Made by a program: the position numbers and the translations under genes. A stretch of DNA of 64,000 nucleotides from Mesaphorura yosii (taxonomy: Eukaryota > Arthropoda > Collembola > Poduromorpha > Tullbergiidae): the NCBI GenBank assembly GCA_009869945.1, contig WIXG01000185.1:92127-156126 (forward strand), in the 5' to 3' direction. Positions 5,115 to 26,700 of the stretch are shown here, in pieces (positions within the stretch are counted from its first letter, which is position 1; each line of letters opens with the position of its first letter). The notes beneath the pieces are model-generated. The model made no database searches and was not told the DNA's origin. It saw nothing but the letters and a program-made list of their open reading frames with translations.

Positions 5115-5435
5115 AGAAGCAGTATGAAGAGGGTAAGGCGACTGCAGTGCATCAGCCATGTTTAATGCCGAGAATTAGCCTTGTGAATCAGTTTATTTTA
5201 TTTTGTTTCTGAGTTATCTGTACGCTTATGCTGTCTAAAGTATCTCTTTTGTTTCTTGACATTGGTCTTATTCCAAACAAAATCATAAATAAAAGGCGTT
5301 TAATAAATTTGTACTGTTGACCGGACTCGCATCTTGTCTAAGTATTGTACGTAAGTAGATTTATTTATCACTTTCATTTCAGGATTTAGAATACGACTTT
5401 CATTTAATAATTTTACGAATTGAATTTGTCGACCA

Positions 5436-5609
5436 TAACTCGCAAGGTCAACGACAGCAATAACTAAATGGTCCGGAGCAGGTGTCACAAGAAGTATTTA
5501 TGACTCCCATCGAGCCATCAACAAAGGAGTCATGAAATATTTGTCGAAAGAACCGATCTCAGTTTTAGACAGTTGAAATGTTGGATTTTCGGCAACCGCC
5601 GGCAGTAAG
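5436..5609 (+). pseudogene. Broken copy of exon 13 of the downstream CLCA-kinase gene
   Basis: From about 5436 to 5609 the sequence follows 10836-11010 (exon 13 and its donor) with many substitutions: cgcaaggtcaacgacagcaa is identical, followed by recognisable gagcaggtg, tcccatcgagcca and ttggattttcg blocks. The frame is broken by taa soon after the identical segment. Only this exon and the start of the following intron seem copied. It marks a past partial duplication of the receptor gene whose intact copy starts 1.7 kb downstream. Confidence 0.8.
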
Positions 5610-5850
5610 TGCGAAATCTACGAAGGTAACAACCATCTCATGATAGAGAACAAGTTATTATAAAATGACTGTTGGGTGAAATAAAGGTGAAGATCATGAC
5701 CATTCCATCATTAAACAAGGTATCGCCATTAGAGTGGCGTGAATGGTGTCATTGCCAAGTGATAAGAACTGATATGAACTATATGTAAATAAAGAGCGTA
5801 TCCTCGACTCGATACTTTTGAATTTAGTATCTAATTGGATCTGACAGACG

Positions 5851-6960
5851 ATGGTTCGCCCCGCGGGGAGTTTTAACATGGTGTCGAAATTGACAATCCT
5901 AATCCATTGCCTTGCGATTACATTCGAGATAGGCCTGGCCACATCCACAAGCAGCTCGGTCTATTCAGTGAGTTCAACAAATGTCCGTTCGATTTATTCT
6001 TTAACTAAACTCGTTCATCTACTTAGGAAAACTCTTGTGACCCGAACCTCGAAGACGCCAAACAGAACACCACGACTGATCCACGCCGTGCAGACTCGAA
6101 GTACTGCGTGATGTACGGAATTTGCGACAATGAGGCAGGCTTGCCTTGTGAAAAACATAACTTCCCACCATCGTTGTTATATGGATCTCAAGCTGGTCGC
6201 TTTTGCTCCGAAATCCTGACGGATCCCTGGTCGTCTGAAGTATGCTGCGACGAAAATCAAACCGATAAGCTGACACAATTGCTCTACATGCCGGAGAGTT
6301 TGCTTGGCAAATGTCCGTCCTGCTTCAATAATCTTGTCCGTACCCTCTGCCTCATTTCCTGCTCCGCAAACCAGTCGCAATGGATGCAAGTAAGAACCAT
6401 ATCCGGTTCGGCCGTGGAGGGTGTCGCCGTATACATTTCTCCAGAGTATGCCAATGAAGTGTACGAAAGCTGCAAAGACGTCAATCTCGTCGTAACAGGA
6501 AAGCCCATGACGGACCATTTATGCGGACGAAATGAGAACTCGTCTACCTGCAATGCAGAAAAGTGGTTCACGTGGATTGGAAACCCAACAAATGGACTCA
6601 CACACTTTCAGATTGATTTCGAGTTTGGAACCGTGCCTGGAGGCATGACACTATTCAGTGACCAGTATTCAAAGTGTTTTCAGGCTCCCAATGTAAGACA
6701 ATAATTCTCCTAGAACGACAGTTTAATTTCTGATTGTAATTTTTGCGTAGAGTCAGACGAAAGCATGCGCATGTGCCGACTGTCCAGGCAGCTGCTTTGA
6801 AACTACGGAGCCGACAACTGAGTCAGATTCGACTGAGTCCACCGAGGATTCAGAGTCTTCAGGCACTGACGTCATGTGGAAACGAACGCACACCGTCACC
6901 GTCATCGTCACTCTGTGTCTTGTTGGTTTGACAGTGTTCGTGAAATATTTGTTTGAATGA
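5851..6960 (+). CDS. NPC1 N-terminal-domain-only protein with C-terminal membrane anchor
   Basis: Exons 5851-5967, 6027-6692, 6751-6960; 330 residues. A signal peptide (better from the second Met, MVSKLTILIHCLAITFEIG) precedes a complete NPC1 sterol-binding N-terminal domain: CVMYGICDN, CPSCFNNLVRTLCLISCS and the closing CACADCPGSC correspond to conserved blocks of that domain. A Thr/Ser/Glu linker (about residues 276-300), one hydrophobic helix and KYLFE then stop. Full NPC1 has about 1,280 residues with 13 membrane spans and a sterol-sensing domain; none of that follows, and AATAAA is at 6989-6994. By family knowledge the domain binds the sterol 3-hydroxyl end; here it would sit on the lumenal or outer face of a membrane. 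Sterol capture or lipid uptake is inferred. Confidence 0.88.
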
Positions 6961-7270: not shown

Positions 7271-10200
7271 ATGAAAGAATGCTGGGCGGAGTCCGTACGT
7301 GTGTGCCTGTGCATCGTCTTCCTCACGACAAGTTCAACCTGTGTGATATTGGACCAAGGTGGAGGATACCATGTTACCATCGGCATTGACAAGAATGCTA
7401 GTGAACAAGTCAAGGAGCCTCGTGACTACGTTGACAATCTCAAGGTGAGTAATTAGAAAAAAATATCACTGCTACTTGACTTGAACGCTTTCCCAAATCA
7501 TTAATCATTTTGGTTCAATATATAGCGCATTCTTAAAGACTTCTCCAATGCGCTTTGGATATCCACAAATACGCGTTTTCATGTCAAGTCTGCCCACATC
7601 GCAGTTCCAGAATCCTGGGCCAAGGACCTTGGCGCAAAGGATGCAGCCTCGTAAGTTGACAGGAAGCGAATTATTCGTCTTAACAGAACTATCACCGATA
7701 CTCATGTGGTCGTCTCTAATCTAAACGCTTCATTGGTATCAGAGTCTCTTACAACACTGCCGACATTGTGATTTCGCAATCCACCAGCGTTCCTCACACC
7801 GAAATCTATTACCCTTGTGGCAAGGCTGGGCTCAGAATCCACCTGCCTATTGAGTTCATTGACTCCAATGATCACCTAATGTATGGACCACAAGGCATGT
7901 TTCAGTGACGTTATAAGTTACGAGTTTCAGTTTCTACTTAGAATTCTTTTACATAGCAAAGGGCCTGCTGAATCTGTGGCTACGATATCGGTTTGGTATT
8001 TGGGAGGAGCACGGATACCCGGGCCATACACTCACGCCTTACGTTTATCAAGCCAATTCTGTGGACCATTCTCCATGGGAGCTTACAAGCTGCAACAATA
8101 GTCGTCTCTACGGAGAATTTTTAAAACCGTGAGTTTCTGAGAACATTTTAACATGAGGGAATTGTCTAACCAAAAATTCCATAGAGTCACATTTGTTTCA
8201 GGATTATTGCAAATGAGAATGATCAAACTTCACGAAATGAAACTTGCAGCATAGACGGAACGGCCTTTATGGACAAAGCATGCCGATTCCATCCGGACGA
8301 AGAGAGTTGGAATAACGCGACTTCGTCCATCATGAACTTTCACTGGTTGGACTCGGTTGTTGCATTGTGTGACAACGACACTCACAATAAGTATGTACCC
8401 AGTCGACAGAATCTGTTCTGCGACCATCGAAGTGCTTGGGAAGTCATCCGCTCCAGTTTGGACTTCAAGACCCTGGAAAAACCACAAGATGCTGAAAACA
8501 TTCCTCACCAGTTGCCGGCGATCGGGTTCAATGTCGTAACCGAGAACAAAAAGCCACTATTTTACATTTTGCTGGACAGTGGGTCGCCGTACGTATTGGT
8601 AACCATTCTTTGTAGTACACTACGAACCCCACTCAGATTGTGTCGATGCAGGGGACGAATTCATTTTCTCAGGTTAATAGCACGATGTACAAGGTGTGGC
8701 AGGAGGAGCTCACGCACATGATCAAGCAAGTCGATCCCAACGTCATCGGTAAATTTGTGACATATCCGGTTGCTCTTCCTGCTTTCGGCATTATCCAAAC
8801 AGAATTAGAAGAAAGAGTGGGTTGGATGAGAATGGACTCAGAGGCAAAGGACCGATTTATTAAGTAAGTCGAAAAAGTGGTATTGTGACTAGGAAGCTGT
8901 TCTCATTTTTACTACTAGAGCTCTAGATTTTCGAAATGGGTCGAATCCTGTCCAGTACGACTTTCGAGTGGCTCTCGCGGAATCTCTGGAAGAATTGAAA
9001 GAACGCAATCATCCACACGGTACTGTTCTCTTGATGTTGCGAGTCGATGATTTCTTCATCGGAGGTGAGGCACTGTTGACTTCCGCTTCATTGCACTCGA
9101 GCCTGCTTGCAGTTGCGATCTTAAAGGGAGAACTTTGTTTAAATAATAGGTATGTCAACTGCATTTGAGGAAGATTTCATCGTCGACCTGAAAATGTACG
9201 GCATCCAGTTGTTCGAGGTTCAAGTTCAGCGAAGAAAGATGGACATGTGGCACAATCCGAGGCTGGAATACATGGCACTCGAATCTGGAGGCATCAGCAA
9301 GCTTTTTGAAATCGAGTACGAGGAAGGCGATTCTGCCGCAAGCGGAGAAGCTGCCCGTCAAAACTTGACTGAAGTTGTGAACTCTGTTCTGAATGCACTG
9401 GAGAATAGAATCCCGAAGCACAGACAGTTTAGTTTGGTGGGTTGGAAAGAGTGAAGCTGTAAATAGTTAAGAATCTATTCTTAATACTTCGTCTTGTTAG
9501 ATCTACAGGGGAGCCCTGCAGCACATGGAAAATAATCATCTTCTGATTCCAAAACGAGAGGATATAGAACTGCTTCATGTTTACGTAACTTCTCTTGAGT
9601 ACAACGTCGATTACATTCGGTTTCAATTGCCTGATGCAGAGGGCCCATTCAAGAGTAGACCGCAATGGGGAACAGATACCGAAAACGATTGGAGACTTGG
9701 CTTCACGTATTCGAAAGTCTTCAACGTTTCGACGATGCAGGTGAGCTATTGGCCTTCATTCGTGATGTTGGCACGTCACTGACAACCATTTCAGAAATCA
9801 GTGAAACTTGTCAGGATTACGACTTCTGGGCGTGGGAACTTTACGTCATCATGACTGATCCTCAGTACCATGATGGCGAGAATGGAGCCATAATAGTTTA
9901 TGGATCGAATCCTGCGGGTCTTGCGACACCAAAACAGTCATCCCAAAATGTGAACGCAGAAATATCCACGTCTGCAGACTACAACAAGTATTTTTCATGT
10001 CTGAATGAAATGAATGCCGAGCCGTTGTCAATATTTGTCAAACTGACTGGAGAAAACGGACAGCCCATAATTATAAACACTGACGCTACTTCGACTGGTT
10101 TGGGAGATCAGATTGATGTGCAGAAGCAGCCCAAACTCGTTGTGCAGCTGGTCCATCAGTTGCGAGCCGACGACATGCTTGTAGCAATCTTGAATGACGG

Positions 10201-12446
10201 AGGACACGGTCCGGATTTAATTGCTGGCGACGGCGTCTATTCTGCTTACATTTATCCAAAAGATGGACCATACCGGGTATTCCTTAACTTCTATGACAGT
10301 GGAGGTAAATTGATCCGGTCGCTATTTTGTTGCTCACTGCACCCGTATTTACTAATATATGGCAAAATCAGAGTCCAAGCCCGAGCAAGTCGTCAAAAGC
10401 ACGTATCCAGTTGGGACATTACTATCCAAGCAGCAAAATGAAATGGAAATCACTGTAAATGGAACAACTCTGAAAACTCCGTACAGTTTTTACGCTGGCA
10501 CTCCCTCAAATGTGCATGTCACAAAGGGTTGTTACGGAAAGGTAATTATACTCGTACGAAAATCTGGGGAAAAGAATAATGCTTGCCGGATTGTAGAGGT
10601 ACATTTCACGAGTTCGGGATGTGAGTGCTACAGTGACTGGAAATGAAACTAACGTGGTGCGACTGTCTTTCAGCGTTCCTTTGCTCATGATTTCAGGAAA
10701 ACAAAATGGAATAGAAACTGAAGGTGGGATTTCAGATAACTCCCCACGAAGTGAACAACTTCGAAGTAACTTGCTATTTCATTCTAATTAACGTAGACCC
10801 TGACCGGGCGGAGGACGGGTACTACATGATCATGATTCGCAAGGTCAACGACAGCAACAGCCTACTGAATGATCCAGAGCAGGTGCCTCAAGAAATATTC
10901 ATGATTCCCATCGAGCCAGCCGGACGGATTCATGAAATTCTCGTCTGGAGAAACAGTAATCATTTCTTGACAGTCGAATTACTGGATTTTCGACAGCCAC
11001 CAACAGTAAGTAAGATGCAACCACCATTGGGTTGGAGTTACCCTGAACCGATTAATGAACTTCTGTGTCGGTATCTGTAAAATGTAACCACAGAAATCCG
11101 CTGCGTCAAACATCGCCTCGATTATTGGCTGGCCAGTCCAGGAAGAAAATCCGGGTTCCGGACCCATCCGGACTGGCTGTGACGTCACATGCATTGTTTC
11201 AATTTGCGTGGGATGTGGCCTGGCAATTATGGCCCTCTTTGCAAGTTCGTTGGTGCTCTGGAGGAAAACTCGTTCACAGAAAAGACAGATTCATCAGCTG
11301 ACACGAAGCGAAATTCGGGAGTTCAGATTCGGAGTTCAGGTGTCCCATCCACGGAGTGAAGTCGAAGCAGCTCCAAGCGACTACTCCTACAGCTCAGACT
11401 TCATTCAATCTCTGCCATATGACAGCAAATACGAAATCCCAAGCAACAAACTGTACATTGATAAAACTGAATTGCTCGGATCGGGCATGTTTGCCAACGT
11501 GTTTAAAGGCTACGTCGTCAACATGCCCGGAACTGCTGGAAAAGTCCTCATCGTCGCAGTAAAAACTATAAAACCTAACATGGAGAAAGACTACTTCAAG
11601 GTATTGCTGACAGAAGTCAAGCTCATGACGCACATCGGCTCCTCCAACCCGAACGTCGTGAGACTGATAGGCGCATTCACCAAAAATATCAGAAAATGTG
11701 AAGTTTTTATGGCCATTGAGTTCTGTTCGAAGGGGAATCTCCTCGCCTACTTGCGAAAATTGACGGGATGGAAGTTCAAGAACTTGATTGACGCAATGGG
11801 CAACCTGCAGATACAAAAGATGGAGCTGGACGAGGACGAAGTGTCCACTTTGAATTTGATCAAGTGGGCGCGCGAAATCGCCCATGGAATGGAGTACCTT
11901 GGTCAAAGGAGAATCGTTCACGGGGACCTAGCGGCAAGAAATATTTTGCTCGATGACAAGCTTATCGCCAAAGTGAGTGATTTCGGACTTTCCAAGCAGC
12001 TCGTCCAGTACAACAAGTACACTGTTGAGAACGCAGGCGGTCTTTTCCCTTGGAAATGGCTCGCGCCCGAAACACTTCAGTTCTTCAAATTCTCAGTGGG
12101 CTCTGACATTTGGGCGTATGGAGTAACTCTGTGGGAGATCTTCAGCCTCGGTCAAATTCCGTACCCAGGAATCAACTGGAGCCCAGCCTTCGTCAATCAA
12201 CTCGAGAACGACGGCCTGCGTCTTCTGAAACCGACTTTTGCAACCCAGACAATTTACCAGGTGATGCTTGACTGTTGGAAGCTCGACCCGTATGAGAGGC
12301 CTGGATTTTACCGACTGAAGGCAACATTGGACCGAATGATGGTACTCGTCTCGCCGGACGAATACATGAACTTGTCTCCCTTCTCAGTCGAGTATAAGAA
12401 TGTGAGTAGGATTTATTCGGCACAATACATGAATATAAAAGTATAA
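7271..12446 (+). CDS. Receptor tyrosine kinase with CLCA-type ectodomain
   Basis: Fourteen exons: 7271-7444, 7526-7650, 7743-7894, 7957-8128, 8202-8592, 8616-8863, 8919-9064, 9150-9436, 9501-9740, 9815-10304, 10372-10541, 10597-10723, 10797-11005, 11094-12446; 1,427 residues in one open frame. Signal peptide; residues about 35-330 match the CLCA N-terminal region. The family HExxH protease site is replaced (LLNLWLRYRFGIWEE aligns to it), and the VWA metal site is degenerate (LLDSGSP). DGVYSAYIYPKDGPYRVFL and RVRDVSATVTGNETNVVRLS are the CLCA beta-sandwich and Fn3-like parts. One membrane helix lies near 1009-1032. The kinase (about 1095-1395) has GSGMFANVFKG, VAVK, a class III/V-like insert, HGDLAARN, SDFG and LAPE, so it looks active. 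Tail tyrosines YMNL and YMNI fit Grb2 SH2 sites. Intron 3 is GC-AG. The whole membrane/kinase half is a single exon. Confidence 0.85.
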
Positions 12447-12508
12447 AAATGCTGTCTGTTAATGAAACGCTAACAAAACTTACGCAATAAATTAGTACTA
12501 TTTAGTAG

Positions 12509-15500
12509 TTAGCAATGCCTGTCAAGAGTCACGTGCCCACCGCTCGTGATACCCGTGTATTTGGTTCCAATTTCCCCGCACAGTGAATATCTTCTTCTAC
12601 CCGTGCTTGGGCTGCCTGCCACCGTTGCTGCCGCCGTTCTATTGGAAGTGGGTTCTGAGTCAGGATCCGTTCTGTTTCCGCTCAACATTGCGTCGCGAAA
12701 CAGAGTCTCCTCAGACTCCTCAGCAGCGTCGCCGTCGTACTCATTGATTGAATCGATGTCAATAACTTCGACGCGCTTCACAAATAGTTTATTGTTGCAT
12801 ATGAATCGCCAACATTGCGCCATGACGTCCAAATAGTTGTTGTTGTACTTCCACTCAACTTGCACCTGCGTAGTACGGTCAGTGTTCACATTTGTGTGGA
12901 TTTTATTGAATTGTCGCATTCGATCATCTCGACGGGCAAAATGTCAAATGTGTACGGCTTTACTTACGTCCAGAAGTGCCCCAATGGGCTTACTGTTCTG
13001 AATCATGAAGGTGAGATTTGTGCCATGTTGGATTCTTAAATTCCTGAATTGCATAAATGCATAATACACTCATTAGCATGCAAGCTTATAAACTCCCAGG
13101 CCGCCCAGGCGTGTAAATTCCTTACTCTGACGGCGTGAGATTAATATTCTTGATGGTCATCTCCGAGCCCTTGAGGCTCATCCGGACTTTGCCCGTCACC
13201 CAAGGCGCGGCGTGTCGTGGGTACGCCAGTTGCAAGTTTATGCGATAGTGATACACTGTAACAAGTACCATTAAATACGTATTAGTGAACCAACGTACAT
13301 TTAATTACAAAAACAAATTAAGTGCAGTGGCAGAGCCAATATTGCCAATTGAGAACGTACCGCAGTAAGGTATTGACTTGGCCGTGGTTAAGTAAAAGCG
13401 GACAAGACTGCGATTCCCAACTGCATATTTATCAGATTCGATTCCCATTTTGGCACAAAGTGATCCGTCAGAGCCACATGAATGGCATTTGCCCTGTGTG
13501 ACATGCATAATGTACGCTTCACTGATAAAGTAGTCATATTGGGAATTGCGAAGGACGAAGAAGCATGCCTGCACGTACCATGAGATATGTATCGTAGTCT
13601 GGGCAGCGATGGGCTACGAAAGGACACGTCGTGAGCAGCGACTCAATGAAGTAGTAAATCGCTCGATGATGATTGCATGCAAATATTTCTCGCTGGACTT
13701 GATCCAGCCCATGCGCGTTGATCAGATTCATCGGATTCTTGGCCAGATCGCATCCTGGCTGTTCCTTACCATTATTCGGATAGAAATCAATGTGACCGCA
13801 TGGTTGGATCATTCCGTAGCCTGCAACCTTTCTTGTATAAAACCAATCTAAATGGTAAATACAAACCAGTGCGAAATCTTACCACCAAGAAGTATCGTTC
13901 GTCCATCAGTGTGAATGACGTCTACGAAAGCCGCGTCCGAAGGGTCAAGCCTCACGAATGGCGGCATATTTTGGAAATACGGCTCAGCCGGATCGAGCCC
14001 CGTTATTCTTCCCAGGCCAGCTATTTTCTGCCCCGCGTAGCCCGCAATGTGAGAACCCAAACTATGCCCAATTAAGTGAATGTCTTTGGGCTGGACGTTG
14101 AATTCGTTCTGTGTACAGCGTAAACAATGTGATGCCACACTAACTTAGCAAGGTTCATGAAACAGAGCAAAATAATGATAGCGCCCGCCTGGACTTACCA
14201 TTAAGAACTTGACGAAATGCGCCAATTCGAGCCCCACGACTCGTGTGTTGGCGGTGGCCTGCGTGTAGAAGGAAAGAGACCCGCCGCCCCAGTCAACGGC
14301 AAAGACGTTGACGTCAGAGTGCGTCGTGAGCTGCTGCGACAGCTTGACAACCCACGAACTGAAGCCCGTGTCGATGAATCCATGAATCACAAACTTGACG
14401 GGCAGTTGTGGCTGGAAGCCGGACTCAAGCAAGCTGCTGCGGTTGAGATGAACTTCGACTGGCTGCCAAGAAGACGATCAAGCACGCATAAATATTGCAG
14501 ATTACGCATAACTTGCTTAATTCACGGTCTGATTCTTATACAGTTATCATTGCACGTTACGTTACGTACAAATTAAGAGGCAACAATTCATCACCATTTG
14601 TTGCGCCGCTTCGTCGCGTACCGTCTTCCCCCGTAATTGTGATTACCATTCATTAGTACAGTTATCAGCGCACTGCGTTTTCAGTTGCAGACCTGCCTTG
14701 CATTTTCGTAGACTTTCAAGATTGAATCACTCACTGAGGGCTTTCCCTTTTCATTATTCGATGCCTGCCTCGACTAAACTTGTACACCCAATTGCTCAGT
14801 TAAATGTCAAATTGTGCAATAATTTACATCGCGTCGCATAAATTATGCAGATTGCTGAACGGTGAAGAAATTTCGCTGCTGCAGTGCAGTCGAATGTCGA
14901 AAGCTTGAAGCCTAGCTCAAGTCCTTGAAATCCTTCTGCGCTGTGCGTAAAATGTGAGTCTCTGAAGCCTGAAGCTGAAGACGAGGAAGACGAGGAAGAC
15001 GCAATAAGCAAGATCCGCTTAATTATCCCGCAATCAATTAAATGCGCAGGGGACTGAGACTTGACTTACATCAGTGACACGTTTTCGTGTGTACAGAATG
15101 AATCGCGTGTGTATTTTGTGTCTATCGAGCGGCAGCAGATTGAGCGGACGGTGCAGAATGTCGAACCACTCGTCAGTAATTTCGATGCAGCCCAGTTCGT
15201 CGTAGCATTTGATCTGGTTGGATGGAATTTGCTCCTGGAACGCAATTTCACCCGCTCCGGAACCGAAGCCCGAGCCTGTTTCTTGTTCCTCCTCCTCCGG
15301 AATCATTCCGTCTCCTGCGCCCATCCCCTCGTTCTGGAACGGATCATTGTCGTCATCATCAACCACTGCCGGGCCGTTGACGTTGCCAGGCCCGATCGCA
15401 TTATTGCCACTAGCACTTGGCTTTGTGCTGGTAAAAATACTGTTACTCGAGTGTGCCGTGTTGTGATCGAACACAGCAACGCCTGTCGAGAAGGAACGCA

Positions 15501-23732: not shown

Positions 23733-26700
23733 CTAACCGCCCCAGCCGGTGCCAGCCGATGAATGGCTGATGGTTGTCCACCCTTGCGGGCTTGGTGAGC
23801 GGCTGACACCCGCTCCACCACTGCCCGGGCGATTGGGCCAATTCCAAGCTCCTCCGCTGCTATTCGGGAAGTTTGTTCCTCCACCGCCAAAACTCGGCTG
23901 ATTGGGTTGACTCCACCAGGGTCCACTCCCACCTGAGCCAGTCGGAGGTTGACGCTGACGACTTGGCTGTCTCGGCGGCTGTCCAAAATCAATCGGCCCA
24001 CGGCCACCGTTCGCCATTTGCGAGGGCGAAGGTGGCCTTGACGTGCTGGGTGAACTGCTTGTCGAAGACGGTCTGCTTTCGGCCGGTATTACCTCGATGC
24101 CTGATGGGGCGCCACCTTCTCTCACAGTTGTTTGGTCGATGTGAAAAATACGAACCTGAAGTAAGCTCCACTGTAATCTCGACTTCAAGACGGAAGTCTG
24201 CCCGCTAAGTTACTTTTTACCTGTGTCGCTTTGGAATTGGGGACCCCACGAATGAAATGGTCCAGATCCTTGACTACTGCATTGCCCTCACGTCTTCCAT
24301 GCCGATCGAAAGGGTATCCCATTGCACGAGCGTCGGGGTAAAGTTCATCCAAAAGTCCACAGTACGAGATTGACTCCTTGCAGCCTTGACGCTGGCCTTC
24401 AGTGGTCCGATTCTTTCTCGCCACTGCATCCTTCGTCGCATCCGTCACAATAACGTACAGATCAAAGACGACTCCAGTTGCGCTTCCCTTCGGAAGAAGC
24501 AGGTGTTGTGGCCAACCGCATCCACAAACAGATTGCGAAGCCGTCGGGCTCTCAGCCTGTCGTTCCAACTCACGGAAACTTTGCTCCCAGGGAATCGTGA
24601 CTGAAGAGTCCTCCGAAGATCTGTTGATTACGTTGTCACCTTGTCTCACTGAAACCAAACAATGAAATTACCAAAGCTCATTCAAAGAAATGAACACCGA
24701 TAAATTACGGGTAGTTGCGAATTTGTCCATCTCAAAGAAGAGTAGGCGCTGTTCCTGGTACGTGAATCTTGCTTTATGTTCGTTGAATCTCGGTGCCATG
24801 AAAATTCGAACGGTCCCTTGTCTTTGCGGGCCAGCATTGTTCACCTGAACAGTTCACAAATTAATATAGCGTCGGAGGAAGTACGAATTAGCTGGCTAAT
24901 TTCTAGGGCGACGTCCTAACTTACAAGTATTCTGTAAGAAAAGTTCTCATGGTTCAAGTGAGTGACGCGAGCCCACACAGGGCCAAGGTTGTTCATGTTT
25001 GTCCGTCCAAAATCGACGCCACGGGACAAATCAATGTCGCTTTGCATCCAGCTTGTGTACAACGTATTTCTCTCGCCTCTGTTTGGAGTTTGGACCGAAA
25101 TCTCTGAAACTTTGATGCCTTGCCATCCAAGCTGTGAGTAAATCATAAGGTGTCATAACTTTCCGGCATAGATGTGTACAGTACCTCATCGGAAGTGTAT
25201 GGTTTAATTGTCCCCTTGTACTTGTCGAAGATGTTATCAATGTATTTGTGCCAACGATAGAACACCGGATCTCGCATGGCCGTCGATGAATCGCCCATAA
25301 CACCAATGTTTTCCTATTGTCAATTTTGAATGTAACAGAAGAGGAATGTGAGACAGCTCACGATGCGTTGGAATGCACGCAGCACAAAATTTTATGGCTA
25401 CTGACTTACTTTGTGTCTGAATTTCGGGTCGTGTGAACACGCGATGAGAATATGCCCATCGTTGTGAAAATCTCCGTAAAATTGTCTATTTGGAGTCAAG
25501 TCCGAAGCTTCGACAAGATCGCCAAGCACATCGATGCCTTTCTCGACGGTCAGTTGAATCCGTTCATTATTCTGAGCCTGCCCAGTCACCATCGCCGATT
25601 ATTAAAACCATTAACTCGAAAATTGTTGCAAATTACCCCAATCACGACTCCGGTGTCGATTGCCTCAAGAATACGATCACGCCACTTTTTCATATTTTCT
25701 ATCTCAGCCTGAAATGGGGCACGTGTATCTGCCATTCGCTCGACGCTCTAAGGACAAGCAACCGATTACTCCTGATGAATGCATCTGCTACTGAACGCTG
25801 ATTGTATTAAGAAAATGCACGCACGGAAAGCTTGGTATTTTCCTGTCTGGCGCCCCAAACTCGCCCAGAATTTGTGTTGTACAATTTGGGGAAGTATCCC
25901 TCAGCAATCGCTTCGCTAATATCCTCGAGACGTCTAGTGCGGGCCAACCCATTGCAGAGACGCTCAGCTTCGTATCTGAATTATAAAGGAACAGCATTAC
26001 TTTCTTAGTAACTTTCCAGCCTCGCGCCTAATGTCACTAATGCGTACCTTGCCAGCATGTCATGGTGCATGTAGTAGAATAATTCTCCTTTTCTGTCCCG
26101 TTCTCCCTTCGCTGAAGTTGTGGGGTAAATCAAATGCCAGTGCCAATGATGAGAGTTCACGCCCAAATCTTCACGCCAGTAGGACACGAGATTCTCCGGG
26201 TTTGAATCATTGCCAGTAAAATTGCGGTCCACCATAATCAGTGACTGTAAATGCAAGGTAGAAGTATAAATGTTATTCGAGTACAAAGTTAATCTTTCTG
26301 AATGTCAGAACCACGTGGGCTTACGCGATCCTGCTGAGGTATGATCGCCTGCTTCTGGGCCGTACGAATGACATCTGGGCTCAAGAATTGGTCGGGTGCA
26401 ATTTCCCAGAAGGCTGGAATTCGAAATCCTTTCATATCAGTCCGGCGGAGGCAGGACGAGGCAAACGCAAAGATAAACAGTCTGGGATTTATCATCTCGC
26501 TGTCTCGACACGTGCAGCTCATGGACAGGAAGTCCTCCAGATTTGATTGTTCTACAAGAAAAGAGTGATAAGCAAAGTCATTATAATAGCATGGAAGAAG
26601 CGAGTCGATGAATGGTTTTAGTTTGACTTACGCATTAGAATCTTTTTGAGTTCTTCAGCCGCTTGTCGATGCGACGGTACGAAGTACGAGAAAATGGCGC

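Follow-up and report, generated by a model that had tools for sequence, protein, structure and literature searches.

Two groups of described proteins lie closest to the gene reported here. In the CLCA family, CLCA2 is known as a type I anchored protein (PMC10669480), and loss of the HExxH motif, CLCA pseudo-proteases and the domain architectures of the family have been described (PMC3650047); the accessible portion of the latter article mentions no kinase fusion, and the word "kinase" occurs there five times, four times for histidine kinases of bacteria and once in the title of a reference. Ectodomain shuffling is likewise known among tyrosine kinases, where the PDGFR, VEGFR and FGFR kinases constitute the FPVR subgroup (PMC8662651); the terms chloride, kelch, tardigrade and arthropod are absent from the main text of that paper as accessible. 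Among the best-ranked titles and abstract beginnings of a search of the open literature, no CLCA-kinase fusion appeared; unpublished or automatic annotations of one are possible.

The gene occupies positions 7271-12446 on the plus strand of the window, i.e. the whole analyzed stretch of 64,000 nucleotides (G000:C185:92127-156126) from a host genome of 93 Mb. With a probability of roughly 75%, we read its product as a type I single-pass receptor tyrosine kinase with a ligand-sensing ectodomain derived from a CLCA pseudo-protease, which would have originated in a single fusion and then been duplicated.

Gene model and domain composition

Independent rebuilding of the splice chain, aided by the paralogs described below, yielded 14 coding exons that begin with the ATG at 7271, end with the stop codon at 12446 and give 1417 amino acids free of stops; the continuous 14-exon frame proposed by the sequence-only reading was thus reproduced. 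Twelve introns are of the GT-AG type and one (after 7894) is GC-AG, with lengths between 53 and 92 nt. The start of exon 4 was set to 7957 and not to position 7942 of the automatic chain, because 7957 yields the sequence of the paralogs. A frameshift at exon 10, where an acceptor 20 nt upstream runs into a stop, was rejected; the paralogs C37 and C387 share the downstream frame. An ab initio gene finder trained on these CLCA genes recovered 10 of the 14 window exons exactly, and the last exon differed by the stop codon only. Exon 14 (11094-12446), which follows a phase 0 intron, encodes the membrane helix, the juxtamembrane part, the kinase and the tail (450 residues plus stop); past the stop, a candidate polyadenylation signal AATAAA is found at 12486-12491. 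19-residue segments with a mean Kyte-Doolittle value above 1.6 exist at two places only, with starts at residues 8-11 and 994-1006. These correspond to a signal peptide (aa 1-24, end approximate; 7271-7342) and to the single transmembrane helix (aa 995-1020; 11175-11252), in accordance with the one helix claimed before. The modeled polypeptide combines a signal peptide, an ectodomain and one membrane helix, as is characteristic of receptor tyrosine kinases.

Residues 27-298 (exons 1-5; 7349-8472) form the zincin-like, Cys-rich CLCA N-terminal domain (Pfam PF08434, E 9.7e-41; NCBIfam hCaCC, E 3.2e-34, below the cut-off for the full length); its Pfam score of 140.4 bits lie far above the curated Pfam cut-off of 25.6, which corroborates the earlier assignment of this region. 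The vestigial protease active site is the segment LNLWLRYRFGIWEEHGY (aa 155-171; 7968-8018), located by conservation and by the alignment of the CLCA rows. The proposed loss of HExxH holds for all five CLCA-kinase genes of the genome, which read NLWLR or SLWLR at this place. The region where a CLCA protein would have its VWA domain (aa ~320-545; 8536-9406) was assigned by its position and by its alignment with kinase-less CLCA relatives; profile searches with Pfam, NCBIfam and PDB detected no VWA domain in any of the five rows or in their profile, and the "degenerate VWA" announced previously, to which the supposedly lost metal site would belong, has no profile match. The following beta-sandwich-like part (aa ~546-800; 9407-10376) contains a DGVYS motif and was delimited by the ectodomain alignment with kinase-less CLCAs; the only match of the later ectodomain is a short one to NCBIfam choice_anch_X (aa 760-791, E 2.8e-5), which scored 23.8 bits in the full protein (cut-off 25) and 25.1 bits in a piece of it. 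The same alignment gave a weak Pfam Filamin match in three of five rows (best E 2e-4) and an NCBIfam hCaCC match in three of five (best E 3.6e-7); the three hCaCC rows do not include that of the window protein. Exons 11-13 encode the membrane-proximal ectodomain (aa ~800-967; 10374-11005), which is present in the five paralogs. A comparison of the ectodomain with PDB sequences gave one match at chance level, and the Pfam matches of the window protein include no immunoglobulin family of the kind that marks PDGFR/VEGFR ectodomains. The notion that a whole CLCA protein forms the extracellular part is borne out in part only: the N-terminal domain is followed by a CLCA-like ectodomain, but the full-length CLCA1 model TIGR00868 was matched over its first third only (positions 10-286 of 863; 117.8 bits, below the cut-off of 900.85), and a VWA domain is missing from the matches.

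The window contains further coding segments. Exons at 6027-6960 encode an NPC1 N-terminal domain (Pfam E 1.3e-38) and, behind it, a segment rich in Ser and Thr and then a hydrophobic end; the second of these exons matched no Pfam family. Downstream of the CLCA-kinase gene, lipase-family exons (Pfam PF00151) are found at 13848-14477 on the minus strand, and hemocyanin-family matches (PF00372) at 25227-26247 on the minus strand (G000:C185:117353-118373). In the host genome as a whole, 66 cuticle-domain matches and 26 hemocyanin-family matches, many of the latter being pieces of exons, indicate a probable arthropod; a search for COX1 gave no match there.

Five loci with both halves

The Pfam CLCA model matches 21 places in the host genome. 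When kinase and ectodomain were searched separately, the matches coincided at five loci, namely C185 (the window gene), C37, C387, C604, and C610. The spliced models of the four further loci show 44-47% identity to the window protein over 1331-1358 residues, nearly end to end, and none of the plain models contains a stop or frameshift; a chance architecture is thereby excluded. A frameshift-tolerant alignment altered only C604 (one X, a gain of 2 score units), whose first exons are weakly supported; this version was used in both kinase trees, in the first CLCA tree (14 rows) and in the tblastn search for relics, the plain model in the pN/pS and intron comparisons and in the later CLCA trees. 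Introns at residues 59, ~100, 151, 411, and 799 are common to all five genes (the one at ~100 is offset by one column in C604), and the intron at residue 968 is shared by C185, C37, and C387. Upstream of the window gene, the plus strand at 5389-5640 retains a degraded remnant of exon 13 from a second copy; it matches aa 903-979 with 43% identity (tblastn E 3e-12) and is interrupted by in-frame stops.

These loci bear directly on whether the window holds one gene or two, i.e. a secreted CLCA protein and a separate kinase joined across 11005/11094 only by splicing on paper. Reading into intron 13 leads to a stop at 11078-11080, so that a CLCA-only message is conceivable. However, the order of the parts is identical at all five loci, and in two of them no intron separates the CLCA and kinase parts: a single exon of C610 (L012:5516-7174) extends from about window residue 856 to the tail and comprises the CLCA C-terminal part, the helix and the kinase, and a single exon of C604 (L011:6624-8068) unites the same parts from about residue 902 on. 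Moreover, the open frame of exon 14 begins at 11088, its first methionine sits inside the membrane helix, and no such helix exists within the CLCA part; for these reasons neither half alone would be a complete receptor. The trees given below, which return one clade for the five with either half, argue in the same direction. On this genomic and thus indirect evidence, two adjacent genes are very improbable, and this reading was rejected on the exons of C604 and C610. That CLCA ectodomain and tyrosine kinase constitute one predicted protein is supported by the five loci, the shared exons and the agreeing trees.

Phylogenies were computed separately for both parts. The five CLCA-kinases form one clade in the kinase trees (support 100/100 with 28 and then with 34 kinases) and in the CLCA trees (99/100 with 14 rows, 100/100 with 12 rows, 99/100 for the N-terminal part with 14 rows). 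Each of the five trees joins C604 with C610. The CLCA trees place C185 as the first branch, and so, with weak support (89/16), does the tree of 28 kinases; in the 34-kinase tree its place is unresolved. One CLCA row, C1_160k, which also entered the ectodomain alignment with kinase-less CLCAs, is a composite that spans 6.6 kb and is made of the tandem genes C1:167k and C1:160k; repeating the CLCA tree without this row, and then with its first 300 residues, gave the same result, the longer repeat tree also being computed without C5. As the five fall into one clade in both sets of trees, a single fusion followed by duplications fits best and is the simplest account. The branch order among the five varies between trees in the place of C37 and C387, so that co-duplication is unproven node by node.

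Ten other CLCA loci (four on C1 and one each on C373, C5, C268, C230, C29, and C35) have no kinase beside them among the matches listed. The HExxH place was read in nine of them, C1:161k being left out. It is lost in the four kinase-less rows that group with the CLCA-kinases; the other five retain HE but read HExxK (the five models of the HEW type are trustworthy over about 240 residues only). Since HExxH is absent from the five CLCA-kinases and from four kinase-less relatives, the protease was probably dead before the fusion, i.e. lost before the kinase was gained. Just downstream of C1_172k and C373 there are open frames, left outside the spliced models, that terminate with a hydrophobic helix followed by a short tail; the open frame downstream of C1_61k has a hydrophobic end.

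The kinase module and its other ectodomains

The tyrosine kinase domain spans residues 1091-1378 (11463-12326; Pfam PK_Tyr_Ser-Thr, E 7.3e-72), with the glycine loop from 1095, K1124, HGDLAARN from 1243, DFG at 1263, and APE at 1291. The catalytic motifs, said to be intact, are so with respect to Lys, Glu, the catalytic Asp, Asn, DFG, and APE, including the AARN, DFG and APE motifs of tyrosine kinases; the arginine of HRD, which active RD kinases possess, is not, as all five CLCA-kinases read HGD. This exchange could mean an altered or weak kinase activity. The C-terminal tail (12339-12443) carries EYMNL at 1390, EYKNV at 1400, and QYMNI at 1411, which makes three YxN sites (YMNL, YKNV, YMNI) instead of the two counted earlier; only EYxxL is kept across the five paralogs. 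Among the best 60 of 829 matches of a 226-residue kinase part to solved structures, the nearest single-copy kinases are PDGFRA, followed by VEGFR1/2 and FGFR1; the top row is an EGFR chain holding two kinase copies. In FGFR1 and FGFR2 chains, the alignment with C610 continues across its EYxxL stretch, and the FGFR tyrosine at this place docks an SH2 protein. A search of viral contigs gave no relative of the kinase. Judged from these similarities, the kinase is of the PDGFR/VEGFR/FGFR-like kind, apart from its non-RD loop.

In a sample of 34 kinases of the host genome, picked mostly by similarity to the window kinase and hence no census, 31 show G, A, or S instead of the arginine (HGD, HAD, HSD), which we take as a sign of a large lineage expansion. 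HRD is kept in C653, C83, and C1126; the latter falls among the non-RD kinases, C653 and C83 stand apart (100/98). Other ectodomains occur within this group, for which the ab initio models are partly wrong. C654 (L025:4331-6493:+) unites Kelch repeats, a helix and the kinase within one open frame, and Kelch is also present in the modeled kinase protein of C1099 (L026). In C535 (L022:1196-2599:-), one open frame comprises the C-terminal half of a C-type lysozyme (Pfam E 2.4e-9; PDB lysozymes E 2.8e-19), a helix and the kinase; it has an asparagine where the lysozymes of two alignments have the aspartate of STDYG, which is catalytic in lysozyme. Immunoglobulin matches above the cut-off lie in the open frame of the C328 kinase and in the exon adjoining that of C489; a weaker one, under the cut-off, lies in the modeled protein of C636. 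By these assignments, the non-RD kinase expansion carries at least four kinds of front, CLCA among them. A wider generalization is tentative and rather doubtful: one non-RD kinase module may have been mounted repeatedly on dead or borrowed secreted proteins (CLCA, lysozyme, Kelch, Ig), generating pseudo-enzyme sensors which would read former substrates, e.g. microbial walls or mucus.

Proposed receptor, alternatives and known systems

Selection was compared in kinase, CLCA_N domain and the rest of the ectodomain; in every region, all 10 pairs have a pN lower than pS. The contrast is clearest in the kinase (pN 0.14-0.22, pS 0.69-0.89), followed by CLCA_N (0.19-0.35 and 0.62-0.86), and least in the middle ectodomain, where constraint is weakly measured because synonymous sites are near or at saturation (rest of the ectodomain: 0.31-0.49 and 0.63-0.76). 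Around the lost active site, 29 of the 50 columns of residues 151-200 are invariant, compared with 3-24 in the other ectodomain blocks up to residue 950; six CLCA_N cysteines are invariant in the five paralogs. From this pattern we infer that the dead cleft is kept as a binding or structural surface.

According to the proposed mechanism, a putative ligand or neighboring molecule would bind the dead protease cleft and the Cys-rich domain and thereby bring two receptors together; the paired kinases would phosphorylate one another in spite of their HGD loop, which is of the non-RD type, and an SH2 protein would dock at the EYxxL tyrosine conserved in the tail. The fusion would be a single event, in which the short tail of a CLCA protein anchored in the membrane gave way to a kinase exon from the non-RD, PDGFR/VEGFR/FGFR-like expansion of this genome; duplication of the fused gene would then have produced the five-member family.

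An unlikely variant is that of an adhesion receptor, whose CLCA ectodomains would bind each other or the matrix, the kinase reporting contact and not a soluble ligand. A large ectodomain of several domains, each copy having 6-17 N-glycosylation sequons, would suit this function, and the kinase-less relatives also seem to be membrane-anchored; a specific partner agrees better with ectodomain conservation being strongest at a single spot, the former active site. Blocks between residues 301 and 650 reach only 17-34% identity. Still less probable is a decoy or pseudokinase scaffold, whose kinase would have lost catalysis or kept it for regulation only, with the CLCA part titrating a partner. Both the HGD in all five genes and the lost protease residues could be read in this way. 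Against it speak the retained catalytic residues and the kinase being the most constrained region; furthermore, a non-RD loop is usual among the sampled kinases of this genome, which makes it less likely that they have all lost their function. The ligand-sensing receptor is therefore the reading that we prefer.

Known receptor-kinase ectodomains are few in kind, and a five-gene CLCA-fronted family beside lysozyme- and Kelch-fronted kinases allows one to trace, within one genome, how domains were shuffled onto a single kinase module. Here a recognition surface seems to have been retained from an inactive enzyme, with conservation peaking at its lost active site; if so, the family shows how animals can make new receptors from used-up enzymes. 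Of the "new receptor class" postulated by the sequence-only reading, the architecture remains, whereas the kinase itself belongs with a familiar type.

Compared with the CLCA family (human CLCA1 and CLCA2), the window protein has in common the CLCA_N domain, the downstream beta-sandwich motif, the type I anchoring and, as far as described there, the loss of HExxH; it differs by its tyrosine kinase and by lacking a detectable VWA domain. PDGFR, VEGFR, and FGFR are nearest to it by kinase sequence among solved structures, but it has HGD for HRD and a CLCA ectodomain for the immunoglobulin domains. The Ig-, Kelch- and lysozyme-fronted proteins of the host genome (C328, C489, and C636; C654 and C1099; C535) belong to the same kinase expansion and have an HGD or HAD loop, whereas their ectodomains are unrelated to that of the CLCA-kinases.
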